From the IMG/VR virus record IMGVR_UViG_3300032213_002318, positions 1-27,263 of that record: a stretch of DNA of 27,263 bases. One strand, 5' to 3'. The notes below the pieces were generated by a model. The model was not told the DNA's origin and did not search any database. It was given only the letters and a program-made list of their open reading frames with translations. Of this stretch, positions 1 to 16,579 are shown piece after piece (within the stretch, counting starts at the first letter, position 1; each line of letters opens with the position of its first letter). Source of the DNA: a virus. A program made the position numbers and the translations under genes.

Positions 1-2010
1 CACCACCACCTGATCCACCAGCAGCACCAGATACACCAACGGTACCACCTCCACCCCCACCAGTTGACCAAACATTACTTGATGGACTTCCAGCAATATA
101 GAATCCGGAGTTAGAGCCATTGCCTCCAACTGGACTTGATTCTGTAATACCAGCACCACCAGCACCAACAACCACTGTATATGTTGTTCCGGGTGTAACG
201 GATATTGATGGACTTACTCTGTAACCACCGGCGCCACCTCCACCGCCAGCCCAATAGTTCACACCTCCACCAGCACCTCCTGCTCCACCACCACCAGCAA
301 CAACAAGATATTGCATTGAAGTCACACCGGGCGGAACAACCCATTGTTCTGTGCTATAAAAAGTAGACACTCCATTTCGATTGTTCGATGTATCAAGTTT
401 AACGACTACTATTCCCGAACCACCAGAACCAGCAGTGACAGGTATACTTCCTGTGGGGCCGCCACCAAATGTCGGTGCGCCACCGCCACCGCCACCCTGT
501 CCTGAAGCAGCACTTACACCATTCAATCCGTAGCCACCAACAGCGCCGGGCGCTCCACCAAATTGCGGATGTGCTGAACCACCTCCACCAAAAAATGGCG
601 CACCGCCTCCACCACCACCGGCATAACCAACATTAGCGCCCGTGATTGAAGAGAATAGTCCCAATCCACCTGTGCCGCCGCCGGGTGAAGCATTTCCGCC
701 AAGTCCTCCGGAACCGCCACCTCCACCGCCTGCGGGTTGTGCGCCAGCGGGACCGGGTGATCCACCACCAATTCCACCATTAAACCCTTGAGCAGGAATT
801 GATAAGCCTCCTCCATTATTAGGTCCGCCGCCACCTCCGCCAGAACCACCAATGAGTCCAGTCGCAGTAGGACCACCGCCACCAGCACCACCACCGTTTG
901 CTGAAACATTTGAAAACGGTGGTGCAGCCGTTATTGTGGAATCTGAACCTGGATTTCCAGGAGTGCCCAGCCCAGTTTTTCCGGCACCGCCAGCACCAAC
1001 CGTAATTGTATAAAGCGTATTACCATTTACTGGATAACTGACCAAATATCTCATTCCACCGGCGCCACCTCCGGCATCAGATGCACCAGAACCTCCGCCA
1101 CCAATCACCATAATATCTGCTCTTGATACACCATCAGGTATTCTCAATTGACCCGTGTTAGCAAAAACATAGACACCATTAACAGTGGGTGATGTTTCGG
1201 CATAACGAAGAATAACTACACCTGAACCACCTGAGCCTGCATTAGTTCCATCACCAATAGAACCAGCACCACCGCCACCACCAGTATTATTAACGCCACT
1301 ACCTGCATATACAACTGTTGGACTGTATGGAACACCGCCCTGTTTTTGCCCATTACCACCACCAAAGGGTGTTCCTAACCATGGTGCACCGTAAGGCGCA
1401 TAACCGCCTCCGCCAAAGAAAACGCCTTGTTGATATGCACCTCCACCGCCACCAGCATATGCTACATTTGCACCAGAAATTGTTGAAAATAATCCAATTC
1501 CACCATTACTATATCCTGAGCCAACTGGAGATACTCCACCTGCACCACCGCCACCGCCACCCTGTCTATCTGCACCCGAAGGAGTAAACACTCCAGTGCC
1601 ACCATTATTCCCCTCGGAAGGTGTATAGCCGCCAAGGTTCCCTAAACCGGCAGTGCCACCTTGATATCCACCGCCTCCTGAACCTCCACTTTGTCCAACG
1701 CCGCTTCCTGGACTGCCGGCAGCACCGCCACCGCCGCCCGTTGACCAGACAGCAGGAAATGGTGATGTGCCAAATATACCTGAGTTTGAACCATTTGCAC
1801 CAACAACGCCATATGTTCCAAAACTTCCACCGGCGCCAACAACAACTGTGTGTGTCGCTCCAGGAGTTACGGAAAGACTAGGGCTTGTTCTAAATCCACC
1901 AGCGCCTCCTGCTCCAGCATAGTATCCTCCTGCACCACCGCCACCTCCACCAACAACAAGATATTCAACTTGTGTTACTCCAGATGGCGCTACCCAAGAA
2001 CTACTTTCAG
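1..2010 (-). repeat. Three tandem glycine-rich modules of about 270 residues (third truncated)
   Basis: Module A spans about 2010-1190, module B about 1185-375, and module C about 370-1, cut by the edge. Each starts with a P-x-GV turn and a hydrophobic strand followed by a Gly run. Modules A and C share S(I/L)SVTPG and TVVVGAGG segments followed by NGSNSG and VWSTGGGGG. Modules A and B share G(I/L)GLFS, ISGANV or ITGANV, YAGGGGG and a closing GSGGSG segment. Boundaries were judged by eye. Confidence 0.75.
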
Positions 2011-2158
2011 TGAAAATTCTTGAGACAGTATAATTAATCGGAAGACGAGTTGCTAATGAAGGCACAGACATTCTACTTAAAGACAAAAAGACTTTAATAG
2101 AATGTGCTGATAACCTTCTTGAAGAAGATGAATTTATCCTAAGTCTGCGCTGACTCAT
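1..2158 (-). CDS. Glycine-rich tail-fibre/adhesin protein, partial (C-terminus outside window)
   Basis: An open frame of 719 codons runs from an ATG at 2158 to the left edge with no stop, so the C-terminus is missing. An in-frame TGA directly precedes the ATG, so this is the first possible start. No clear Shine-Dalgarno is seen; Met30 (2071) is a weaker alternative. Residues 1-30 are Arg/Ser-rich. After about residue 48 come tandem glycine-rich modules of about 270 residues, each opening with a W/L-x-(V/I)P-x-GV segment and a YLVVGGGG-type strand. Two of them close with a GSGGSG-(I/V)V(I/V) segment; the third is cut. Glycine-rich domains of this kind occur in phage fibre tips, and T-even gp38 adhesins use polyglycine segments for receptor binding. 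A receptor-binding role is inferred from composition and from its place at the end of the fibre cassette. Long open shadow frames on both strands here result from GGN codons. Confidence 0.8.
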   Translation of the reverse strand, partial: MSQRRLRINSSSSRRLSAHSIKVFLSLSRMSVPSLATRLPINYTVSRIFTESSSWVAPSGVTQVEYLVVGGGGGGAGGYYAGAGGAGGFRTSPSLSVTPGATHTVVVGAGGSFGTYGVVGANGSNSGIFGTSPFPAVWSTGGGGGAAGSPGSGVGQSGGSGGGGYQGGTAGLGNLGGYTPSEGNNGGTGVFTPSGADRQGGGGGGAGGVSPVGSGYSNGGIGLFSTISGANVAYAGGGGGAYQQGVFFGGGGYAPYGAPWLGTPFGGGNGQKQGGVPYSPTVVYAGSGVNNTGGGGGAGSIGDGTNAGSGGSGVVILRYAETSPTVNGVYVFANTGQLRIPDGVSRADIMVIGGGGSGASDAGGGAGGMRYLVSYPVNGNTLYTITVGAGGAGKTGLGTPGNPGSDSTITAAPPFSNVSANGGGAGGGGPTATGLIGGSGGGGGGPNNGGGLSIPAQGFNGGIGGGSPGPAGAQPAGGGGGGSGGLGGNASPGGGTGGLGLFSSITGANVGYAGGGGGGAPFFGGGGSAHPQFGGAPGAVGGYGLNGVSAASGQGGGGGGAPTFGGGPTGSIPVTAGSGGSGIVVVKLDTSNNRNGVSTFYSTEQWVVPPGVTSMQYLVVAGGGGAGGAGGGVNYWAGGGGGAGGYRVSPSISVTPGTTYTVVVGAGGAGITESSPVGGNGSNSGFYIAGSPSSNVWSTGGGGGGTVGVSGAAGGSGGG

Positions 2159-2168
2159 TCAAACACCA

Positions 2169-2507
2169 TTAATAAACTTCTGTACCAAAAGCGGAGAAAG
2201 CAAGCAATGAACTATTAGCGTTGACTGAAACAATTGAGCCAGCATTTAACGTAATACCTAAAGTTAATGTTACAGTATCACGACCAGGCACATTAACACC
2301 ATAAGCAATGTAACTTGCATTTGAAACAGCAGCACTTGATGTGTTGACTGCAATTCTAAATGCACCGCCAGTACCATCAGACTCATTAAGATTAGCAATA
2401 GTAATAGAAGAAATAATTGCTGAGTTTCCTGATGGAACGGTGTATAAAGTAGTCAGCGCATTGGCTGTTGGACTTGATTGACCTAAAATTTTATATGCTC
2501 TTGCCAT
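2169..2507 (-). CDS. Small beta-rich virion/fibre-associated protein, 112 aa
   Basis: This is a short protein with alternating hydrophobic residues typical of a beta sandwich. It contains VPSGNSAIISSITIAN near residues 24-39, a pattern seen in small structural proteins of T4-like aquatic phages; the exact family is not recognised. A Shine-Dalgarno AAGGAA (2517-2522) lies 9 bases before the ATG. It follows the 142-aa gene after 18 bases and precedes the glycine-rich gene by 10 bases. It resembles the 110-aa protein at 2954-3286 in length, in the (I/G)xTIAN strand and in a late G-x-L-x-AG-x-x-(L/V)xVN segment, so the two may be paralogues. A role in the tail-fibre or capsid-decoration apparatus is inference from context. 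Confidence 0.6.
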   Translation of the reverse strand: MARAYKILGQSSPTANALTTLYTVPSGNSAIISSITIANLNESDGTGGAFRIAVNTSSAAVSNASYIAYGVNVPGRDTVTLTLGITLNAGSIVSVNANSSLLAFSAFGTEVY

Positions 2508-2525: not shown

Positions 2526-2954
2526 TTACATTCCACCAAATAAAAATGCATCATCAAAAATATCCGCTGGTGTGCTGATTTTTTCGCCCGTAACAGTGTT
2601 GTTTGCAATTTTTTCGTTTGTTACAGAGTTCACTGCGATTGCCGTTTGTGTTACAGAATTTGGTTGTATTTGTGAAGCCGTGACCTGATTAAATGTGACT
2701 ACAACAGGTGCAAGATAACGAACCGTAATATTGTTCGTTCCCAGAGGTGGTGCTTCATCAAATGCCAAAACACCACTTATAATAATATAAGATGTTGTTG
2801 GTCTTTGAATTACACCATTTACAACAACTTCTATGGCATTTGGATCACTGATACTTCTAGTTAAAGTATATAGAGTGCAAGCACCAGTACCACTAAAACT
2901 ATCAAGGGTTATCGTAAAAGCATTTACATCAGGATTGTTACCAATGTATGACAT
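2526..2954 (-). CDS. Putative short tail-fibre protein with fibre-attachment-like N-terminal domain, 142 aa
   Basis: Residues about 10-82 form a beta-rich module of a kind common in phage tail-fibre proteins: a leading FSGTG segment, then EVVVNGV-Q-P, a SGVLAF strand and NITVRYLAP. Residues about 90-128 contain short repeats built on NSVT-x-x-x-I and NTVTGEKI, a pattern of thin trimeric beta-helical fibre shafts. The protein ends soon after with DDAFLFGGM, so it is a mini-fibre or adaptor rather than a full fibre. Its ATG overlaps the stop of the upstream 110-aa gene (TAATG), and GGAG lies 8 bases ahead of the ATG. The function is inferred from sequence style and from its place in the fibre cassette. 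Confidence 0.6.
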   Translation of the reverse strand: MSYIGNNPDVNAFTITLDSFSGTGACTLYTLTRSISDPNAIEVVVNGVIQRPTTSYIIISGVLAFDEAPPLGTNNITVRYLAPVVVTFNQVTASQIQPNSVTQTAIAVNSVTNEKIANNTVTGEKISTPADIFDDAFLFGGM

Positions 2955-3286
2955 TAAGTAATCTCCAGAATTGAGGTAATAACATCAGCAGAAGATGCAA
3001 TTGAAGTGTTAACCTGTAAATAATCTCCGGCTTCTAAAACAAGTTTTTGATCACCACCAACGGGCACTAACGCACCACCTGGAGCAATTGTAGCACTTTG
3101 AACTAGATAAACATTACCAGTAATATTTCCACCACTTAAAATGACATTCGCAGAAATAGGTGAATTAGTAATATTAGCAATCGTCATACCAATGACAGTT
3201 GCTTGTACACCGGCACCAGCGGCGTAAGTATTTTGTGCCGTAGTTCCGGCGGCTTTGAGTGTTTGATTTCTAAACGTATTTGCCAT
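2954..3286 (-). CDS. Small beta-rich virion/fibre-associated protein, 110 aa
   Basis: This 110-residue protein is rich in Ala, Asn, Thr and Val with alternating hydrophobics (IGMTIANIT, NVYLVQSATIAPGGALVPVG, LEAGDYLQVNTS), consistent with a beta-sandwich structural protein. No enzyme motif is visible. A Shine-Dalgarno AGAGGA (3291-3296) lies 4 bases before the ATG. A late-promoter-like AATAAATACT sits further upstream and overlaps the end of the preceding gene, so this gene probably starts its own transcript for the right part of the fibre cassette. It overlaps the next gene by one base. It may be a distant paralogue of the 112-aa protein at 2169-2507. Confidence 0.6.
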   Translation of the reverse strand: MANTFRNQTLKAAGTTAQNTYAAGAGVQATVIGMTIANITNSPISANVILSGGNITGNVYLVQSATIAPGGALVPVGGDQKLVLEAGDYLQVNTSIASSADVITSILEIT

Positions 3287-3315: not shown

Positions 3316-4200
3316 TCAACCTAGAGCAATAGCAAAAGCAATAGCCTGATCCGATAACGCCGAAATAGCATTGTAAATTGCTGTGTTTGCTGGGCCGATC
3401 AACGTATTAATATTAGCAGTTGACGCAGTTAAATTTGTAATGTTAACCGACTGAGCGTTTATTGTAGTGTTACCTTGAATTGATAAATTTCCGTATAGGA
3501 ATGTATCACCACCAACATACAAGTTGCTCGAAACGTTTGCAACAGCAATGTTTGAGAAGAAAGCGGTCGATCTTACATTCAAAGATTGTCCAATGTTTGC
3601 TGAACCAGCAACACTTAAATCATCAAATCCAATCGTGTCAAGTGTAACATTACCTGAGATTGTCAGATTACCATATAAGAACGTGTCGCCACCGACATAC
3701 AGATTGCTTGAAACGTTTGCTGTAGAAATATTTGAGAAGAAAGATGTTCCAGTTACATTCAAACTATTAGCAATATTCGCCGAACCCTTGACATCTAAAT
3801 CGTCGAAGCCAACAGAATCTAATGTAACATTGCCAGAAATAGTAAGATTACCGTAGATGAAAGAATCGCCGCCGACAAACAATCTGTTAGTAACATTAAC
3901 AGAAGCAACGTTACCAATTAGATTTGCATTGCGACCAATGATTAAATCTAAAGGTATTGAAACGTTACTGCTTGACACAAGAACGTTAGCAATGTTCGCC
4001 GTATTAACCGTTAGAGTATTAATATTGGCTTGTGTGCGAACATTTAAAGATGCTGCTGCGCCCTCGATAAAGATAGCAGAATTTGCTAAAAATCCACCGT
4101 TTGTATTGTCGGTAAGATTATTAGCAACAGCAATTAAAGATGATGTTGCTGTTAACCATTCCGTAAAGGTGTTTGCTGTGGTTAATTGATTTATTGCCAT
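3316..4200 (-). CDS. Repeat-containing tail-fibre-like protein, 294 aa
   Basis: This Asn/Ser/Thr/Val-rich protein is built largely of beta repeats. Residues about 103-162 and 163-222 are two copies of a 60-residue unit, and residues 223 to about 245 start a third. Each unit carries (L/F)(Y/F)VGGD, YGNL(T/S)I, GFDDL and SLNV segments, ending FFSNI in the two full copies. Residues about 50-100 contain shorter related NxT-type repeats, and the C-terminus is Ala-rich and possibly helical. Such GNL-x-I/GN-x-T ladders are typical of phage fibres with beta-helical or triple-stranded shafts. The gene lies 1 base after the 73-aa coiled-coil gene. Assignment as a virion fibre is inference from repeat style and context; no receptor specificity can be read. 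Confidence 0.65.
   Translation of the reverse strand: MAINQLTTANTFTEWLTATSSLIAVANNLTDNTNGGFLANSAIFIEGAAASLNVRTQANINTLTVNTANIANVLVSSSNVSIPLDLIIGRNANLIGNVASVNVTNRLFVGGDSFIYGNLTISGNVTLDSVGFDDLDVKGSANIANSLNVTGTSFFSNISTANVSSNLYVGGDTFLYGNLTISGNVTLDTIGFDDLSVAGSANIGQSLNVRSTAFFSNIAVANVSSNLYVGGDTFLYGNLSIQGNTTINAQSVNITNLTASTANINTLIGPANTAIYNAISALSDQAIAFAIALG
3471..3894 (-). repeat. 180-bp in-frame tandem repeat (2 full copies plus a partial third)
   Basis: Units begin at 3894, 3714 and 3534 (minus-strand direction), exactly 180 bases apart, encoding 60-residue fibre repeats. The third diverges after about 20 codons. Copies 2 and 3 both begin with the same VSSNLYVGGDTFLYGNL segment. Confidence 0.85.
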
Positions 4201-4425: not shown

Positions 4426-7400
4426 TTATGAACTTTCTATCGTAGAAGAAGGTAATGCAATGACACGGAATTGTGCAATTCTAGGCACATCAACAGTGCT
4501 TGTGCCAAACATCACTACCTTAATTAAGAATACTGAAAAGTCTCTATACTGGCTACCATTTGAAGATGTATACAAAATTTTGTTATCAAATCTACCTGAT
4601 CCATACGTGCCTGGAGCAAATGTCAGTTCAGAATAATCATATTTGTCTTGTGAGACAAAATTTTGTGTTGTTGGACTTTCAACCATCAAATTAAAATTGT
4701 TATCTTCAATAAGTGAAGAATCAGAATCGGATAATAATTTATAGTAAACAAGAATTCCAGAACCCGCTGGACGATGTGCATCCATATACACTCTCAAATC
4801 GCCAGCCTCAAAGCCAGGTGTTAGTGCAATTTTTTTGGTAATGTAACGAATTGCTGCATTGCCGCCCGTTGATTTATCTTCTCCATTGTAAACAACAGTT
4901 GCAGTTGTGCCGCCACTTGCATTTATGGTAACCGTTGGAGATGTGATATATCCAGTCCCTGGATTCGTCAATTCAATTCTTCTTAATACACCACTTTCAA
5001 CGACACCAATCGCTGCACCACCCGCTCCTTGTCCAGGAGTTCCAGTTGGATAAGATAAAGTTACATCTGCATTACCTGAGTAACCAGAACCTCCATTTGT
5101 GATAATAAATCCGGTGTTTTGTAATGGTAAATTATTAATCTTGTTTTCAATTGTCAATAGATTCAAACGATTAATATCAATCATTGGAGAGATATCTTTA
5201 TTTGAACTTCGCATTGAAACTCTTAACTGGAATGTATTATTACCAGTCGTTGTTGACAATAAACGTCGACCATAACCATCATCACACTCGTAATCTTGAT
5301 TAGGAACAATAGGTAACAATGGATGTTGTCCACCCGTTACCATTTCAGAAACGAAATCATATTGAACTGCGGTGTTTGCGACCACCGCATCAGTTGACAT
5401 TAACTGTAACACATCAAAAACTGTATTTGATGAATACTCAGAAAGGTCAGTTTCAAAGAATCCAACGCCAGTTCCTTCCGTAAACACACGTTTTTGAATA
5501 CTAAACATAATATCACTTAACTGTTCTGCATTCCATGTCGAACCATTTTGCGACAAGAACAATGAACCGGTGTATGGTTGTTCCGAAATCTTCACGCTTG
5601 TTCGCAAATCTGTTTCACCAATCTCAGCAATGAAGCATTCATATCCATTACTATTTGACACCAAAACAAATGAATGTTCACCCGGCAATAATAGAATAGG
5701 CACATCAAATTTAAATTCCGTATACTTATTTGGATCAGTTACATCTGGCACAGTAACAGTTTTAACTTTATCTGGCGTCAAAGTTTTTTCAGCGAATGGA
5801 TAAATTACTGATGATGAAGGATAACCGTTAACGACTGGACGAATTTGGCAAGTAACTGGCTCAGTCAAGTCTTTAGTCTTAAAGCAAACACGAACTGAAT
5901 CAATAATAACACCTTGATTATATTGATTTGGATTAATCAAGAATGTTTGTGCCAGAGGATCATACCAACCAATAACAACGTTTCTTTCTACATCGGTACT
6001 TGTTGTTGTTTTAATTGAAGATGTTGATGCTGAAAAAGATTCATTTACAGTAGTTCTTTGTACAGTAGGAGTAAACACTGTTACGGATGTTTCCTGTCTT
6101 GTATCAACAGTTCCAGAAGAGAAGAAATTAAAATCGCCATTCGTTCTTGAATTTTCAATATTATTACCGGAATCATCAATTAAACGAAGAACTTTTTCAC
6201 CTGTGCGGAATGTATCTTCCGGAACCAAGAAAGTGCCAGCAGTTGCGCCTTCAGCAGTTGTTTTTAGCAAACCAATTGTATATACAGAAGTTGCGTCTGG
6301 TTGCGTTGACCATGAGCCAGTAATTGTCGCAACTCTTGTTGATGAATCATAATTTGTAATTACTGATGACTGACCTTTACCTGTACCATTTACGATGTAC
6401 AGAGTTTGGCCAACATAGTCGGCGGTGTCGGATGCGCCACCAGCACTAAATGCAAGAGTAATACTTGTTGTAGTTGCGGCATTTGCACGGCCTGTATTAT
6501 GATACCATTTATTTACACGATATGTTTTACCTGTGATGTTACCTTTAACCCAAATACCATTTGTTGCACATGCTGCCCAAGAGCCAAATGTTGGATCTGG
6601 TGCCATGTTAGTAATAAATGCATTATTATTTGCAGTTAAAACAATTCCGCCAGTGCCAATAATGGTATCAGTTGCAATCAATCCTGTATTGGATGATACA
6701 TTATAGAATGTCACCACTTCTTGATTTGAAAGTTGTGTTTGATATTCTAAATTATTATCAAACATCTCAAAACGATTTATTTTTGCAATCTTATCATCAA
6801 CATTTACATTATCAAAGAATGCATAAAGTGTCGTAAAAGGCTTAAACTTTTCAGCAGTAACAAGAACGTTAATCGATCTCATATAATTAATGATACTGAA
6901 ATCAATTAATCTATCGCCAAATGACTGTGATAATTGTTGTGGAACAATTTGAGCAAGAATGCCACTACGTGAAGCATCTAATGTTTGCGTTTCTCTTACA
7001 GTCTGTAAGAAAGTTCTTTCTTGATCAGCCAACAATAAGTTACCCGACCATCTTTGATTCGTATTTACTGTTTCACCAATCTGAGGTCCACGGCTTAAAA
7101 CTTCTTCAGTCGTTGTCCAACTTGTATTCCATGCACCCCATGTTGTGCTTTGAATTGATGACCATGCATCACGTGCTGCTTCTCCACCAGACAGATCAAT
7201 ATTTTGTGCTTCAACACGTGTGGTTGAATGCCAGACATCCGATGGTGGATCCATTTTAACAGTGCCAATATAGTTGACAATATTAAATGGATTAATGTTC
7301 ATAGTTTTTGATGCACGATTCTGCGTCACAAACGATGTGTTTGAAGAGGCAAGCATCAAAAGAGGACCATTAATTTCTACATTAAAGTTTGCTATAGAAT

Positions 7401-10400
7401 TATTTGAGAAAATTTTTGTTGATGCAATATTATAAGAGCCTCGGCACTCCCTTGATACAATATCGATAGCAGCATCAAAGTCTGGTAATGTTATGAATGC
7501 TCCATCTTTATCCGTGAATGAGTCAACAAAAATACCATTTTTTGGTCGTGACAAACCTACCGCATCACGAATCGTTCTATCATTTTTATTAATTGTGGCC
7601 AATTCTGCAATTGACAATGAAGTATAAAGTTCAAGATTTTGAATACGTCTATCAAGACGGCCAATATCTCTCATTGTATAACGACGATTATTAAATGTTT
7701 GTATCGATGTTGCGGATGTAAATGTCAAGTATGCAGGATATGACAAGATGTACAAAGTCATTGCATCATCAGGCTCAACTGGAGAAACTGGTGTTAGTGA
7801 AGGAACTCCCTGCAACACCTGAAATTGACGATTCTTGTTCAGAACAACACGATCAATACGTGGCAAATAATACTCATAATCTGTGATAATATCTAAACCG
7901 GGTTCCGAAATCTTAGGACCCAACACAGCCTCATCAACATCTAAAATAAAATTATTTGCTCTTGCAGTTGTAGTTGCATTTATACGAACAGGACGGAAAT
8001 CAAGAAAATCTCTTAATGGAATATTTAAACCTTCCTGTGAAGTAAATATAGGTATTTCGCCGTATTCAATACCCAATCCACCATTTTGTTGTGAACCTAA
8101 TCTTGTGTATGAGTCAACGCTAAAATAGCCTGAACCGGAAGAACTGAAACGATTATAACGAACAACAAGAGGACCACGTGGTGCATTTTGTCCTGGTTTT
8201 AAAACAATTGATGACCAATCATAATAAGAATCTTTTTGTCCTGTGTTCAAATAGTAACGTGATGTTACGTTCGCAGAAGCAGATGCAATTGCCGTGTTGT
8301 AATTTGCTTGTGTTAAATTAGCACCATTTAAATCAAAAATAGCATTAATTGAATGTACATCTGTTACATACAAATATTGTGCAACACCTGGCGTTTTAAC
8401 AACAATTGATTCAGAAATAATTGTTTGACCATCATTTATTGCAACGTTTGCACTTGTGTTTCCAGAAGCACCAGAACCAAACACACTAAGAACTGTACCA
8501 GAAGGAATACCCCAAGCAGGATCAACTAATTGAGTGTTTGCTTTAATGAATGTTTTGACTTTCAAACTAGGATTCGAAGCATTCACAACAGCATAAATGT
8601 TTGCTGTCATGTTTCCGCCATTATCCACCGTAATTGTGCGAGCAGATGTTGAAACTGTTACAGCCTGTGATGGCACAGTTTGGCCTGCATGATAAAAACT
8701 TGTGCCAGGAGTTGTAACAATAACTTGATAATATTGTTGTTTTGCGGAAGTTGTTGTTGCTGCTTGTAAAGATTCACCGGTACCTAATGAAAGAGTTTGT
8801 GACACACCCGCAGTAAATGTTACTGTCTGATATAATCTTCTGTATGCGTAAGAAAAATCGGAAATGGTGTTGTCAGCAATGTTTGCGTCACCGATTCTAA
8901 TTAATAAAGGTTCAGATTTTGAATCTGCAACTTGTGTTGGTTGAAATGCGCCACCTGTTGACACAATACTTGTTGGAGGAGTACCAATCGTTTCATTTTT
9001 TGAAAGTGGAGATACATTTGCTGAAGCAAGTCTAATTGAACCACTTCTTGAAACAAACGATTCAACAGAATCAAACTTTGCGTCAATGATGAATCTATGA
9101 TTGACACCTGTTGCTGCTGAAAATGGACGATCAACTGTGGCTGTTTGCGTTGAACCCGTATATTCTGTAATGATACGAGATGTATTATCTCCTGGATTGT
9201 TGATTGGTGTACCAGCAACCATTCTTATTGACATGCCTTTATAAACATCATTGTTCGCTGGAAATAAATCTGGAAGAACGATTGTTGTTGTTGTACCACC
9301 AGCACGTGCGTTTATGCCATATCCGTTGTTTGCACCAATAGAACGTGTATTAATGTCAGTCAAAAATACTTTATAGATGTAGTTATTACTGTCACTTGTA
9401 TTACCCGCAGCAGCATAGAAAGAAGAAAGTTTAATTCTGGCTGTACCAATAACTGCATTTGAATAATTACCTGTAGCGCCACCAGACAAATATGACACGA
9501 TCTGGCCGGTATTAAGTGCCGAAAGTTCTATAGTGCCATATTGATTTGTTGGAAAATTACCAAACATACCATTGGCAAAAACATAATAACCATAATCAGA
9601 GTTGATACGATGATTATTTACTGCAACGGTTGTTCTTGGTTTTGGCACAGTAATAATCACTGGTTGTCCTGTTGCAAACTCATAACCTTTGATGTATGCT
9701 TTACCTGAGCCTAAACTAATATTTGCAAATGCAGAATTTGCAACACTGTCTGTAATTGCAATATCAAAATTTTTGATAACGTAGTCACCAGATTCATCAA
9801 AAGTTCTTCTTGCAAATTCATCGGCAACGCCAGCATAAATTGGAGTTTGAACAACTTTTAATGGAACGCCACCCTCAACAACGGCCATTTCAACAAATTT
9901 TGTTAAGTCTGTACTGCCAATCGGTCTTGTTTCCAATGTCATAAAGATTTTGTAACGATCCGCACCGGGCGCTTGGAAGTTTGAAGAGCCCTGCGCTGGA
10001 TCAAGAAGAGTTGTATCTTCTGTAAAATCTATAATGTCTTCCGTTACAGTAAAGCCAACAATTGCATTACCATCTCTTACATATTTGTCGATAGCAACAC
10101 TTTGTGGTTGTACTTTTACAAAGAAGCCATCATAGTAAATGACACCTTCGTTAATAGAAAATGTTTGATTATTTCCTGTTGGATTTGCTGATGCAGTATT
10201 GGCATAATATGTAACTACAGTTGGATCAGAATTTTGTGTATAAATTGTTTCATTCGTAGTAAATGGCTCACCATACATTTGATTAATAACGAAAGTAATT
10301 GGCTGACCCGTAGCAGTGTCGGCAGAATAAGACTTTAAAATATACGCACGTTTTGTATTTGCCGCATTTGCAATAGTTTGTTTATCAAAATTAATATAAT

Positions 10401-10662
10401 TAATATCTTGACCAGAGAAAGTTGAAGCAATATTTAAATAAGCGGTATTCTGAATAACAATAGAACCACCAGTTACAATAGAACCGGTTTTAAAAATGTG
10501 ATCACCAAACTTTTTGATTTGATCTTGTAAAGTTGTTTGAAGTTGTGTTAATTCACGTGCTTGAACAGCATTGCCTGGTTTAAACAATGTACGATAATAG
10601 TTTTTATTATCGTTAAAATCATCATTATATGGATCAACATTAAAATTCGTATCTAGTGCCAT
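4426..10662 (-). CDS. Giant baseplate/tail-fibre structural protein, DUF4815-type, 2078 aa
   Basis: The N-terminus (YYRTLFKPGNAVQARELTQLQ, about residues 22-42, then QDQI-KFGDHIF) matches my knowledge of the DUF4815 family of phage structural proteins. Other recognisable points are a conserved INPFNIVNYIG segment (about 1120), a DPLAQTFLINP segment (about 1564) followed by a beta domain, and a LLPGEHSFVLVS strand. Two similar short modules carrying an SRII-x-x-Y or SSVI-x-x-Y segment followed by (T/V)ATV or VATI (about 474-519 and 1414-1459) and a GxGY module (about 1848-1930) appear to be inserted. The gene lies directly after gp8, where T4 has gp9 and gp10, so it may connect fibres to the baseplate rim. 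AAGG lies 8 bases ahead of the ATG. The function is inferred; the size and DUF4815 start are seen. Confidence 0.75.
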   Translation of the reverse strand: MALDTNFNVDPYNDDFNDNKNYYRTLFKPGNAVQARELTQLQTTLQDQIKKFGDHIFKTGSIVTGGSIVIQNTAYLNIASTFSGQDINYINFDKQTIANAANTKRAYILKSYSADTATGQPITFVINQMYGEPFTTNETIYTQNSDPTVVTYYANTASANPTGNNQTFSINEGVIYYDGFFVKVQPQSVAIDKYVRDGNAIVGFTVTEDIIDFTEDTTLLDPAQGSSNFQAPGADRYKIFMTLETRPIGSTDLTKFVEMAVVEGGVPLKVVQTPIYAGVADEFARRTFDESGDYVIKNFDIAITDSVANSAFANISLGSGKAYIKGYEFATGQPVIITVPKPRTTVAVNNHRINSDYGYYVFANGMFGNFPTNQYGTIELSALNTGQIVSYLSGGATGNYSNAVIGTARIKLSSFYAAAGNTSDSNNYIYKVFLTDINTRSIGANNGYGINARAGGTTTTIVLPDLFPANNDVYKGMSIRMVAGTPINNPGDNTSRIITEYTGSTQTATVDRPFSAATGVNHRFIIDAKFDSVESFVSRSGSIRLASANVSPLSKNETIGTPPTSIVSTGGAFQPTQVADSKSEPLLIRIGDANIADNTISDFSYAYRRLYQTVTFTAGVSQTLSLGTGESLQAATTTSAKQQYYQVIVTTPGTSFYHAGQTVPSQAVTVSTSARTITVDNGGNMTANIYAVVNASNPSLKVKTFIKANTQLVDPAWGIPSGTVLSVFGSGASGNTSANVAINDGQTIISESIVVKTPGVAQYLYVTDVHSINAIFDLNGANLTQANYNTAIASASANVTSRYYLNTGQKDSYYDWSSIVLKPGQNAPRGPLVVRYNRFSSSGSGYFSVDSYTRLGSQQNGGLGIEYGEIPIFTSQEGLNIPLRDFLDFRPVRINATTTARANNFILDVDEAVLGPKISEPGLDIITDYEYYLPRIDRVVLNKNRQFQVLQGVPSLTPVSPVEPDDAMTLYILSYPAYLTFTSATSIQTFNNRRYTMRDIGRLDRRIQNLELYTSLSIAELATINKNDRTIRDAVGLSRPKNGIFVDSFTDKDGAFITLPDFDAAIDIVSRECRGSYNIASTKIFSNNSIANFNVEINGPLLMLASSNTSFVTQNRASKTMNINPFNIVNYIGTVKMDPPSDVWHSTTRVEAQNIDLSGGEAARDAWSSIQSTTWGAWNTSWTTTEEVLSRGPQIGETVNTNQRWSGNLLLADQERTFLQTVRETQTLDASRSGILAQIVPQQLSQSFGDRLIDFSIINYMRSINVLVTAEKFKPFTTLYAFFDNVNVDDKIAKINRFEMFDNNLEYQTQLSNQEVVTFYNVSSNTGLIATDTIIGTGGIVLTANNNAFITNMAPDPTFGSWAACATNGIWVKGNITGKTYRVNKWYHNTGRANAATTTSITLAFSAGGASDTADYVGQTLYIVNGTGKGQSSVITNYDSSTRVATITGSWSTQPDATSVYTIGLLKTTAEGATAGTFLVPEDTFRTGEKVLRLIDDSGNNIENSRTNGDFNFFSSGTVDTRQETSVTVFTPTVQRTTVNESFSASTSSIKTTTSTDVERNVVIGWYDPLAQTFLINPNQYNQGVIIDSVRVCFKTKDLTEPVTCQIRPVVNGYPSSSVIYPFAEKTLTPDKVKTVTVPDVTDPNKYTEFKFDVPILLLPGEHSFVLVSNSNGYECFIAEIGETDLRTSVKISEQPYTGSLFLSQNGSTWNAEQLSDIMFSIQKRVFTEGTGVGFFETDLSEYSSNTVFDVLQLMSTDAVVANTAVQYDFVSEMVTGGQHPLLPIVPNQDYECDDGYGRRLLSTTTGNNTFQLRVSMRSSNKDISPMIDINRLNLLTIENKINNLPLQNTGFIITNGGSGYSGNADVTLSYPTGTPGQGAGGAAIGVVESGVLRRIELTNPGTGYITSPTVTINASGGTTATVVYNGEDKSTGGNAAIRYITKKIALTPGFEAGDLRVYMDAHRPAGSGILVYYKLLSDSDSSLIEDNNFNLMVESPTTQNFVSQDKYDYSELTFAPGTYGSGRFDNKILYTSSNGSQYRDFSVFLIKVVMFGTSTVDVPRIAQFRVIALPSSTIESS

Positions 10663-12259: not shown

Positions 12260-15200
12260 CTACTTAAAGATAACTGCTGTTTGTGCATTTGCTGTTTGTG
12301 TCCAGTTTGTTTTATTAGGTACGATTATTGCGCCAGCACCAGCAGAGTTAGGAATAACATTTGGCGTATAATAATAGTTACCTGGATTATTTATTGTGAC
12401 TTTTCTGACTGCTCCATTGCCAGAATAAACTTCAATAGAAGCGTTTGCTGCCGTGTTTCTGCCAGTAAATCCTACAGAAATAACTGCATTTGTTTGAGAG
12501 TTGGCCACAGTTGCTATTGTCAGCACAGCATTTGTATAAACGTTACTATTTGCCGTGACAGTTACAGAAGCAGTTTGTCCAACATTTACTGCTGTCGTTA
12601 TTGTCGATAGATTAGCAATGTTGGTTGTATTTGCATTGTATCCAATTTGGAAAGTTGCGTTCGAAGGATTTTGTAATTGTCCTGTTGCGGGATTCAATAT
12701 ACCCACAACTATAATATCAGCACCGTTTGCATATAGACCAACATCTCGTATAGTTGTTGATGTAATAACACCACCTGTCACATTCGCAAACGCATTTGCC
12801 GCACGATTTGCTGTTCCCTGAGTCGTTGAAAATACGATGTAACCATTTACATATGCACCACCACCAGTCAAAGTTAATGCTTGAGTTATTGAAACTGGCG
12901 TAATGTTTGTCGTAACGTTTGATGGCGGTGTGCGATATAAACCGGCATGATTTACTGTGATTGTTCGAATAACCCCATTTGACGCAAACACTTCATAAGA
13001 AACATTTGCTGGTATAACTGGATCACCACCAGTAAATACAAGTTGTCCATTGGCCAGAGCAACGCCATTGTATGTTACAGAATTAGCAGCAACAGAAACA
13101 ACTGAAACTGGTGATGTATTCAGAACAGCAGTTGGTGTTGTTGAATAACGACCCGGATCGACAATTGTAACTTTACGAATTTGACCATCTACAGAGTTAA
13201 TTTGAACTGTACCCGATCCAACATAGAAAGATGCATTTCCAGAATTTGCGGTTACAGTTGGCACACCGGTATACAATCCGTTTGCAAAAATTACCACATT
13301 TACAACTGCTCCAACGTCATTTACATACATTCTGGCATTTGCGGGTATTATTTCAGCATTACCATTTGATGTTGCAAATCTAATGTAACTGTTTACGCCA
13401 TAAGAAAGACCATTGGCCGTAATAGCCATTATCTGATTTGAACCCGGTGGGAATGTTTCGATTGCAACGACGGCAGGTCGTACTGGATTACCTCCAGAGA
13501 ATGTTAACACGCCGTTCGAGTGACCGTTACCTTTGCTTGTTACTGTAATGGCAGAAATTACCACGTTTGGACTTGTGTTTAGCGTGGCGGTAGGACTTGA
13601 TTGATATAATCCAGAGTCATTGATCGTCAGTGTTTTAATTGCGCCATTGCTTGGATAAACTTCGACAGCAACATTAGCATCACGTAATGGACCACCACCA
13701 GAAAATACTAACCAACCATTTGAATATCCTTCACCACGGGACACGATTGAAATTCCATTTGCATATAACACACGGTGTGGATTACTATCAGGTATAGCAA
13801 CAGGAGTATTCGAATACAGTCCGCCACTCACAAGTGTTAATGTACGAATTGCACCATTAGAAGCAAAAACTTCAACGTTAGCCACAGCAGCGATTGCTTC
13901 GTCTGTGCCAGAGAAAGTAACAAATCCATTTTCGTAACCAGAACCGGCCGCTGTAATTGTAAGACTTGTTACTTGACCACCGCCACCAGAGAACACAAGA
14001 TAACCGTTTGAATATCCAGAGCCAGCATTAGCAATTCTCAGATTTGATATATTAGATGATGTCAATAATACTGTATTGCTTAATATCGTATTAATTGTTC
14101 GGAGTTCACCATTAACGGCTATGCTGTTGCCTATTGACAATATACCTAAACTATTTGCAATATTGTATTTTGTGCTGTTACCAGTGACACTTACTCTGCC
14201 ATTTCCAACATTTACTGTGCCGGAAATTGTATTGCCTACATCAAAAGAATCAACAGAAACGTCTGTCAACTCAATCAAATCTTGTTTATTATAATATGAG
14301 TAATTTACAAGACCAACTGGATGTAAAAGTTCTTGCAATAATTTTTTATATAAACTAAATTCAACACTCGAAGAAATTACATAAGAATAATCTACATAAA
14401 AATCTTCGCCCTGTAGTTTTCTTTCAAATGAAGAGATAATAGAATCGGATGTTAACCAACGACCCTCTCCAGAAGAATATGAACGTTCAATTTCAGCAAT
14501 CGCTGTTGCAGATCCATCTCCACCAGAAATACTTACAATTGGATTATATTCATAACCCGAACCAGGATTTACCACTTTAATGGAGATAATTTGACCGTTA
14601 GCACCAAAACCGGTTGCAGATAATCTTTCACCATCACCAATTAAAGAATCAATTTGTATATTGGCACCAGATCCTGTTGTGGATGATACACTAATAGATG
14701 GAAAATTATTTTGTGTGTAACCATAACCACCTAATGGCCAACGATTATAAACGCCAAGTTTTTTACTTGATGCTGTATGTGTAAATGTGGAAGATACAAC
14801 TGCTGTCGTATCGGTTGGTCTAGATGTAACTATTCTTGATTCATTATTAATGTCAACAATATCGCCATTTTTTAAATCTTGCGTAAAAAATGTTCCTGTG
14901 CCAGTAATTTCATTACACGCAGCACTAACGGACACTGTACCACGAACACGTGAGTTTGCTGAAGAAACTCGAAGAATATAACCGTTGGCGGCAACTCTAG
15001 AAACTGTTGCTGCTGCCATTTGACCATATGTGCCTAATGGATTTGGACCAAATACAACTTCATCTCCGACTCTGTAATTTAATCCACCGTCATTAATTTT
15101 GTAACGGCCAATAGATTGTAAACTTTTTGAGAATCTGGGAGGATTAACAGCACCAATGGCAACATTTGAGTTGCCGTATTCTGCACCAGCAGCATCCAGT

Positions 15201-16579
15201 TTAACAAAATCTTTTTCCGTTAATGTAATAATTGAGGAAAGAACTCTTACGTTGGTAATTGGTCCAGCCTGAACTGTGACATAATTTAGAGCATCAGCGA
15301 TTGTATTAGCAGCACTAAGATTTGCTTTTCCAAACACTGTACCCCAATTCGAACTGTTTACATAAACTGTTCCATCAACATTTAGACTTAAATTTGCAAC
15401 AACATCCGGAGATATGGTAAATGAATTCGCAGCATTGGCACCAGTTGCATCAATTCCATCAACCACAGCGATCATTGTTGTGAGTGGACTATTTCCTGAA
15501 ACTGAAATTGGAGAAGAAATAGAAAAAATAGCACCGCCATGGTGAACCGAAACACTGTCAACTTTACCACTAAAAACACGTTCAACTGTACCAAAGGCGT
15601 TTACTGACGCATTTCCACCAGTTACCGTGACAACATCGCCTACACTATAATTATTACCAGAATTAACTGGATTTAATTTTCTTACAATTGAGAACGTTGA
15701 TGCACGAATGTCAATTGATATGTTATTAATTTCATCATTAATTGGTATCGTTACTTGTTCACCATTTAAAAAAGAACCTCTTAATGATTTTTGATCAATC
15801 AAAAGTTCGATCGGCAAACCAAGATTAAGTACGTCGGAAATAGTTCTTTTATTGGCAGTTTCAATAATCGCAAATGCTTTTGACGTAATTCCTGTTACTT
15901 TACGATTTTCAAGTAAATTAAAATCGAAGTTGTTATATGTCGCCAAAATTTCAGAACCATTTGAGGGTGCTGTAACAAAATTTAATCGGCGATATTCTTT
16001 GTTGACAAAATAATCAATATTAGGCGTTTTAAGAACACCATTTACGAATACTGAAAACTCATCTGGCGAAACGATCTGTGCAAGATAAAATGTCTTTGTC
16101 GTGCCATTGCCAACATAACGACTTGAGATGTTAGGATTAACTTTAAGTGAACTATCTATTTGCCAATCACTTGCTGATGCACGAAGAACATTATTTTTAG
16201 GTAATATAATGTCAGGATCTTCACCGAATATAAGTTGAAATAATAACTTAAATGAACTCTCGTTACCTTTTGATCGATAAAGATTTGATAGATGTTTAAA
16301 TAAGAGCGCCTTATTTGACTGAACATCAAGCGGAACAAGAGCAGCATACGTGTTATAAAAATTAATTTCAAAATCATCTATAGACGTATCAACATCAGAA
16401 ATTTCTCTTAGTGATTTTGCTTTTGTGACTAAGTTATTAGACGTTGGTGATGCGCCGCTCTGTTCCAAGAATTCATAATACGCTTCTAAAAACGTAATGA
16501 ATTTTGGATATTCATCTCTGACGAATTCTGGTAACTGTTTGTTAACCAGTATCGATGTTTTTAAATCTTTAAATGACAT
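12260..16579 (-). CDS. 7: Baseplate wedge protein gp7-like, 1439 aa, with C-terminal repeat extension
   Basis: Residues about 15-130 (FVRDEYPKFITFLEAYYEFLE, then YRSKGNESSFKLLFQLIFGED) resemble the C-terminal part of T4 gp7, where a similar EAYIQYL then STKGIEASYKFLFKVLY segment occurs. Residues about 735-770 (SLYKKLLQELLHPVGLVNYS) resemble a later T4 segment with FVHPVGF. The N-terminal half of T4 gp7 therefore appears absent. Residues 130-735 are beta-rich. Residues about 848-1430 are degenerate repeats with GYSNG-LVFSGG and SNGAI-TLTI signatures. The place between gp6 and gp8 fits gp7, the central wedge organiser. The ATG overlaps the gp6 stop (TAATG). A neutral name, virion structural protein, is the fallback. 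Confidence 0.75.
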   Translation of the reverse strand: MSFKDLKTSILVNKQLPEFVRDEYPKFITFLEAYYEFLEQSGASPTSNNLVTKAKSLREISDVDTSIDDFEINFYNTYAALVPLDVQSNKALLFKHLSNLYRSKGNESSFKLLFQLIFGEDPDIILPKNNVLRASASDWQIDSSLKVNPNISSRYVGNGTTKTFYLAQIVSPDEFSVFVNGVLKTPNIDYFVNKEYRRLNFVTAPSNGSEILATYNNFDFNLLENRKVTGITSKAFAIIETANKRTISDVLNLGLPIELLIDQKSLRGSFLNGEQVTIPINDEINNISIDIRASTFSIVRKLNPVNSGNNYSVGDVVTVTGGNASVNAFGTVERVFSGKVDSVSVHHGGAIFSISSPISVSGNSPLTTMIAVVDGIDATGANAANSFTISPDVVANLSLNVDGTVYVNSSNWGTVFGKANLSAANTIADALNYVTVQAGPITNVRVLSSIITLTEKDFVKLDAAGAEYGNSNVAIGAVNPPRFSKSLQSIGRYKINDGGLNYRVGDEVVFGPNPLGTYGQMAAATVSRVAANGYILRVSSANSRVRGTVSVSAACNEITGTGTFFTQDLKNGDIVDINNESRIVTSRPTDTTAVVSSTFTHTASSKKLGVYNRWPLGGYGYTQNNFPSISVSSTTGSGANIQIDSLIGDGERLSATGFGANGQIISIKVVNPGSGYEYNPIVSISGGDGSATAIAEIERSYSSGEGRWLTSDSIISSFERKLQGEDFYVDYSYVISSSVEFSLYKKLLQELLHPVGLVNYSYYNKQDLIELTDVSVDSFDVGNTISGTVNVGNGRVSVTGNSTKYNIANSLGILSIGNSIAVNGELRTINTILSNTVLLTSSNISNLRIANAGSGYSNGYLVFSGGGGQVTSLTITAAGSGYENGFVTFSGTDEAIAAVANVEVFASNGAIRTLTLVSGGLYSNTPVAIPDSNPHRVLYANGISIVSRGEGYSNGWLVFSGGGPLRDANVAVEVYPSNGAIKTLTINDSGLYQSSPTATLNTSPNVVISAITVTSKGNGHSNGVLTFSGGNPVRPAVVAIETFPPGSNQIMAITANGLSYGVNSYIRFATSNGNAEIIPANARMYVNDVGAVVNVVIFANGLYTGVPTVTANSGNASFYVGSGTVQINSVDGQIRKVTIVDPGRYSTTPTAVLNTSPVSVVSVAANSVTYNGVALANGQLVFTGGDPVIPANVSYEVFASNGVIRTITVNHAGLYRTPPSNVTTNITPVSITQALTLTGGGAYVNGYIVFSTTQGTANRAANAFANVTGGVITSTTIRDVGLYANGADIIVVGILNPATGQLQNPSNATFQIGYNANTTNIANLSTITTAVNVGQTASVTVTANSNVYTNAVLTIATVANSQTNAVISVGFTGRNTAANASIEVYSGNGAVRKVTINNPGNYYYTPNVIPNSAGAGAIIVPNKTNWTQTANAQTAVIFK
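12290..14040 (-). repeat. Degenerate repeat array in the C-terminal region of gp7-like protein
   Basis: At least five units of about 65-110 residues share a G-(Y/H)-SNG-x-L-x-FSGG start, an (A/V)NV-VEV segment, SNGAI(R/K)TLTI, GLY-x-x-x-P and often LNTSP. Units at 13640-13740 and 13460-13560 are clear, as is one near 12910-13070. DNA identity is low, so these are old protein-level repeats. Confidence 0.65.

Follow-up and report, generated by a model that had tools for sequence, protein, structure and literature searches.

What does a virus do with a protein that is one-third glycine and repeats one large unit along almost its entire chain? The question is raised by a gene at the edge of a 27,263-nucleotide IMG/VR fragment from an uncultured virus (record IMGVR_UViG_3300032213_002318; hereafter the window, meaning the whole stretch analysed). 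The window carries T4-type baseplate genes (gp25, gp6, gp8, hub, tube cap and tail tube), and its closest cultured phages, at around 30–41% identity, belong to the Kyanoviridae, for example Pelagibacter phages HTVC008M and Mosig, Methylophilales phage Melnitz and cyanophages; the source is a T4-like, Kyanoviridae-related phage. The gene lies downstream of gp25, gp6, gp8 and a VrlC-like gene, a region where some Kyanoviridae-type relatives have annotated or probable fibre genes, and the equivalent slot in Ochrobactrum phage OC holds a 'tail fiber receptor recognition protein'. We propose, with a probability of about 0.75, that its product, referred to below as the adhesin, is a T4-like phage tail-fibre-type receptor-binding protein consisting of an N-terminal anchor and three exchangeable TNF-like/glycine-bundle modules. 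Receptor binding itself is suggested by gene position, fold and loop variability.

The genes between VrlC and the adhesin (Table 1) form a conserved neighbourhood. The order of the 294-aa fibre-like gene, three small genes and the adhesin is the same in the relatives L004 and L010 and mostly so in L008, and the 112-aa gene is kept in all three. Orthologues of the 142-aa protein differ in length (142 aa in the window, 214 aa in L008 at 6991–7635 and 172 aa in L010 at 1632–2150), tracking the number of short repeats of the ITGNLIAVNQ and TTIKIANSSI types, which may mean that a short fibre shaft varies in length. Fibre-like, small virion-type and glycine-rich adhesin genes recur as a trio in L004 (7208–10541 and 11013–14239), and this three-gene set is also repeated in L008 and L010, suggesting that the whole fibre unit has been duplicated. 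Elsewhere in the window, the C-terminal half of a 1439-aa baseplate-wedge-like protein (12260–16579, minus strand) consists of diverged VTSKGNGHSNGVLTFSGGNP-like repeats, seemingly present in the gp6 and gp8 homologues too.

Table 1. Features of the adhesin region, in window coordinates.
Feature	Position	Strand	Remarks
Adhesin gene, three glycine-rich modules	2..2158	minus	719 codons, 3' end off window edge
N-terminal non-glycine segment, residues 1-47	2018..2158	minus	MSQRRL..SSRR..SHSIKVFLSLSRMSVP
Module 1 (Gly_rich_2), residues 48-319	1202..2017	minus	272 residues
Module 2 (Gly_rich_2), residues 331-588	395..1168	minus	258 residues; near-identical in L004, L005
Module 3 (Gly_rich_2), residues 599-719	2..364	minus	incomplete at window edge
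Best-fitting segment exchanged with L005, residues 324-624	287..1189	minus	breakpoint fit
112-aa small virion-type protein, phrog_1276-like	2169..2507	minus	directly upstream of adhesin
142-aa tail-fibre-like protein, repeat segment	2526..2954	minus	candidate short fibre shaft
110-aa protein, phrog_1276-like	2954..3286	minus	recently shared with L004
294-aa repetitive fibre-like protein	3316..4200	minus	between VrlC and adhesin cluster
VrlC-like large structural protein (DUF4815, phrog_358)	4426..10662	minus	baseplate-to-fibre junction marker in Kyanoviridae

The first-pass annotation had described more than 700 open codons cut by the window edge and three modules of about 270 residues. The frame indeed opens with an ATG at window position 2158 on the minus strand and continues for 719 codons to the edge free of stops, and the module length holds for the two complete modules, the third being cut. 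Glycine accounts for 33% of the residues. Gly_rich_2 (PF21722) was the only family that Pfam recognised in the adhesin. It matched three times, at window positions 1202–2005, 398–1150 and 2–352, with an E-value of 8e-46 and 157.3 bits for the whole protein against a curated cut-off of 24.3, and each stretch also passes individually. Module 1 covers positions 5–225 of the 226-position profile and module 2 positions 7–224; module 3 reaches position 113 at the window edge and is full-length in the close relative L004. The module limits in Table 1 come from a profile built on the window's modules and their relatives. An NCBIfam search of the adhesin returned no name. With the whole gene as query, cultured phages gave no match at either the protein or the DNA level, an outcome probably due to masking by the low-complexity filter; cultured phages were compared by family-profile searches instead. 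In a scan sensitive to close relatives only, the window protein had no relative among bacterial and archaeal genomes.

The repeat exceeds low complexity. Modules 1 and 2 align with a score of 462, compared with 262 ± 21 (maximum 322, n=300) for shuffles that keep glycines fixed, and the pairs 1 versus 3 and 2 versus 3 likewise score above all shuffles, glycine-fixed ones included. The shared segments noted initially were all found, though not each in every module: ISGANV/ITGANV and YAGGGGG are common to modules 1 and 2, and VWSTGGGGG to modules 1 and 3. Identity between modules is 44–58%, so the repeat is old; together with the grouping of modules by chain position across phages, this value rules out a recent triplication. 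The GC content is raised, as originally remarked (0.51 versus 0.37), because of the 236 glycine codons, the non-glycine codons having a GC content of 0.40. Open reading frames antisense to the gene seem to be a side effect of its composition.

No contig extending beyond the window edge turned up in an exact-sequence search, and the 3' end was deduced from relatives. The complete gene of L004 encodes 846 aa with exactly three modules and ends in ...GGSGIVVFKWT followed by a stop; the adhesins of L005 (827 aa) and L010 (852 aa) are in agreement, the relatives ranging from 827 to 852 aa. From this agreement we would expect neither an extra module nor an unrelated domain in the window's gene. The possibility raised at the outset, that an unrelated domain lies just past the edge, finds no counterpart in the closest relatives, in which the rest of module 3 is followed by the stop. 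Directly after the adhesin there is a 139-aa gene in L004 (10582–11001), L008 (9747–10166) and L010 (5111–5530), with links to phrog_20715, 1787 and 9114. Its relative in Pseudomonas phage Lana is located immediately after the tail fibre, which makes it a candidate fibre chaperone. Contigs end within glycine-rich genes in the window (position 1), L012 (8857) and L014 (9103), probably because the repeats break assembly.

Structure prediction of a single module, based on an alignment of 54 modules, gave a model of module 1 with a pLDDT of 89 and a pTM of 0.89. Foldseek placed the Bxb1 tail tip first (PDB 9D93, E 8e-6) and also retrieved the Pam3 fibre (7ypx, E 9.7e-5, probability 1.00, TM 0.44–0.47) and, more weakly, the glycine-rich domains of ALK/LTK (E about 2e-3 to 1e-1); in a sequence-profile search of the PDB, the Pam3 fibre was the only match (E 0.016). 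TM-scores against solved structures are moderate (0.4–0.5) and the rmsd is large over the full alignment, so the fold class is clear and the fine geometry less so. The module is predicted to be a TNF-like beta domain with a poly-glycine helix bundle. In Pam3 gp24, 12 glycine motifs form a bundle continuing from the TNF-like domain; its stem is conserved and its tip hypervariable, and the authors proposed the tip as the host-binding part (PMC9608196). Bxb1 tail domains have been described as PPII helical bundles (PMC13243192). The full-chain model of L004 repeats the strand pattern three times over, with a pTM of 0.54, a value that does not fix how modules pack against one another. The earlier idea of stacked polyglycine layers running through all modules finds no support in this model; the presence of a beta core in every module suggests three separate units. 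For the N-terminal 40 residues of L004, AlphaFold predicts neither helix nor other structure (residues 1–39), though at low confidence (pLDDT about 35). This N-terminal segment, a probable attachment segment, is shared in type by the syntenic genes of L004, L008 and L010, whereas L005 has a different one.

The first-pass annotation had likened the protein to gp38 of T-even phages, in which glycine motifs alternate with hypervariable receptor-binding loops (S16 and PP01; PMC6851490, PMC12892980). This shared principle and the T4-like context would both fit a gp38-type tip that caps a gp37 trimer with polyglycine-II receptor loops and has been enlarged by triplication. We consider such a tip unlikely, however, since no gp38 structure was among the PDB sequence and fold matches (E ≤ 10), no gp38 family was assigned to the adhesin in Pfam or PHROGs, and no gp37-like fibre was identified immediately upstream. 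Furthermore, S16 gp38 is built on a beta-helix core, packs 10 glycine motifs into 73 residues and sits as one monomer on the gp37 trimer (PMC6851490), whereas the adhesin unit spans around 260 residues. Nor does the adhesin show signs of the gp38-type N-terminal three-helix attachment whose tryptophans dock on gp37: residues 1–47 contain no tryptophan, and no helices are predicted, though at low confidence. What stands of the gp38 analogy is a glycine-rich, adhesin-like protein in a tail-fibre region; the nearest folds are those of Pam3, Bxb1 and ALK. Because gp38 is a monomer on a trimer, the trimer prediction proposed earlier is no proper test for a gp38-like protein.

Across 59 modules, entropy is mostly 0–0.9 bits in the glycine framework, around 1.3–1.9 bits in strand segments of near-fixed length and 2.5–3.2 bits in loops of variable length. 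Loop variability among relatives had been put forward as a check on a binding role, and the loops are hypervariable between conserved glycine motifs, a pattern expected of receptor-binding tips. Module number also varies. Chains across all fetched loci have 1, 2 or 3 modules, with several chains per phage (three glycine-rich chains with nine modules in L004, five chains in L012); one 857-aa chain with four profile matches, two of them partial, most likely has three. Where the gene carries the window-type N-terminus, its chain counts three modules (window, L004 and L010) or two (L008/L009), and the cultured phages Mosig and HTVC008M have one single-module chain each. Searched against predicted viral proteins, the module model matched 237 (E ≤ 0.001, TM up to 0.79). 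Module repetition is thus a trait of the family, which is common and uncharacterised: what had seemed a striking whole-module repeat is, at 1–3 modules per chain, usual in Gly_rich_2, and triplication alone is unexceptional.

Such copy-number differences, from 1 to 3, could also be read as a sign that the modules serve chiefly as structural spacers or as the shaft of a fibre, in which repeats give length and the glycine loops are weakly constrained. Repeated fibre domains often act as spacers, and other fibre-like genes are present in every syntenic cluster. Weak constraint is nevertheless difficult to reconcile with strands and glycine motifs that are strongly conserved beside the hypervariable loops, or with module 3 of the window and L004, in which a dN of 0.020 at a dS of 0.54 indicates that sequence is constrained within the lineage. 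Domain shuffling in phages, moreover, is most pronounced in receptor-binding proteins (PMC10684548). We therefore judge a spacer role improbable and favour a receptor-binding chain.

The clearest evidence that the modules are exchangeable comes from module 2. Among the window, L004 and L005, its DNA identity is 93–95% and its amino acid identity 95–96%, with a dS of 0.18 between the window and L004 and 0.12 between the window and L005. By comparison, dS reaches 0.96–1.55 in module 1, 1.42 in VrlC and 1.11 in module 3 of the window versus L005. The window resembles L004 from residue 330 onward, and the dS of module 2 compared with that of module 3, which is hardly changed in protein, points to two ages of similarity; the 142-aa gene has a dS of about 0.5 and the N-terminus and the 112-aa gene about 1.0 in the same comparison. 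For the window and L005, the best two-breakpoint split falls at residues 324 and 624 (2 x delta logL 396), with a nucleotide identity of 94.9% inside and 59.1% outside (92% and 60% between L004 and L005). Third-base agreement at glycine codons is 89% inside and 36% outside the segment (window versus L005; Fisher p 2e-15). Both breakpoints are located where a module begins, within its conserved first strands, as would fit the need of homologous recombination for shared sequence.

Could module 2 instead have been inherited vertically and kept alike by strong functional conservation, with no recent exchange? Its amino acid identity alone could be explained by purifying selection, as apparently applies to module 3 between the window and L004. 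Yet the synonymous sites of module 2 are kept as well, those of module 1, VrlC and the L005 module 3 having diverged to around 1–1.6, and the glycine-codon agreement jumps at the module edge. The L005 gene, in addition, is in an unrelated neighbourhood: beyond the adhesin (5858–8341), which is flanked by a SWIM-domain gene and by a 169-aa gene that itself follows a ClpP-like gene, L005 and the window have no DNA or neighbouring genes in common. Vertical inheritance is accordingly very improbable. A chimeric metagenome assembly could imitate an exchange in one contig; here, module 2 recurs in records that are independent of one another, and its copies are non-identical (dS 0.12–0.18). These comparisons show, at the level of sequence, that whole modules have been exchanged between otherwise different viruses. 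A second exchange, across positions, was found within L004, where module 3 of the second chain and module 1 of the third share 78% amino acid identity, the similarity beginning just inside the module. A scan with module 2 alone revealed no additional carrier.

Two further observations concern these neighbourhoods. The 110-aa gene is 96% identical in protein between the window and L004, with a dS of 0.13 where its neighbours have around 0.5–1.4, and is a second recently exchanged segment of the fibre region. Around the L005 adhesin are genes of metabolism and processing, including ClpP-like and sugar-nucleotide enzymes, and no baseplate gene was recognised in that stretch.

On a tree of the modules, made by a quick method and with few strongly supported branches, middle modules require 4 changes of position and last modules 5, compared with 10.3 each in shuffles. 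This grouping by position indicates that the three-slot plan is old and that exchange takes place mainly between like slots. Outside the main middle-slot group, the module 2 copies of the window, L004 and L005 sit together on a separate long branch; tentatively, a module of another type may have come to fill one slot. Domain mosaicism is well documented in phage receptor-binding proteins, in which shuffling is the most pronounced among phage proteins (PMC10684548). In the open-licence papers searched, we found no description of the exchange of single units within a tandem glycine-bundle array, nor of module exchange or position-specific lineages in Gly_rich_2. What is newly shown here, judged from sequence comparison, is that cassettes within one gene are exchanged in a tandem array whose modules are specific to position.

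We envisage that the short N-terminal segment anchors the chain on the tail or fibre and that three modules in tandem come after it, each being a predicted TNF-like beta domain from which the glycine motifs would project as a packed bundle. By analogy with Pam3 gp24 and gp38, the bundle ends would be the hypervariable loops contacting the host surface. Start and end segments common to all modules would allow homologous recombination to exchange a single module without touching those beside it, so that the phage could try new loop sets module by module; the adjacent small genes may supply shaft and assembly functions. More speculatively, the chain might be a multi-slot receptor-binding array of three independently folded modules with differing specificities, in which every slot is filled from a separate pool of modules. 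The slot-wise tree positions and the exchange of module 2 alone are compatible with this rather doubtful possibility, under which phages would change or widen their binding one cartridge at a time.

Glycine-rich bundle adhesins have so far been known as single tips; here they occur in a large family of uncultured T4-like phages as tandem chains, several per genome. Module exchange would offer environmental phages a simple route to host-range change, repeats in glycine-rich chains may explain assembly breaks within such genes, and proteins listed in databases only as 'glycine-rich domain-containing' gain a probable structure and role.

Among known systems, Pam3 gp24 (PDB 7YFW, 7YPX) shares with the adhesin the TNF-like domain and the glycine-rich bundle with conserved stem and hypervariable tip. 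It carries a single module after a long alpha-helical N-terminal shaft, and its trimer has been solved together with the chaperone gp25 (PMC9608196), whereas the adhesin family has up to three modules and a short N-terminus without a predicted helical shaft, the latter at low confidence. The Bxb1 tail-tip glycine-bundle proteins, the best fold match, belong to a siphophage of another host and have chains of around 230 residues with one bundle. The glycine-rich (TG) domain of ALK/LTK combines a TNF-like fold with glycine-rich helices in animal receptor kinases, a likeness in architecture only. With gp38 the adhesin shares glycine motifs between hypervariable loops, but gp38 is a single polyglycine sandwich on a beta-helix core and the adhesin units have more glycine motifs. 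The same full-length domain is found in the Gly_rich_2 proteins of Synechococcus phage Bellamy, Pelagibacter phage HTVC025P and many uncultured Caudovirales, recorded as 'glycine-rich domain-containing protein' without functional assignment, and among these database proteins lengths of around 810–850 aa occur too.
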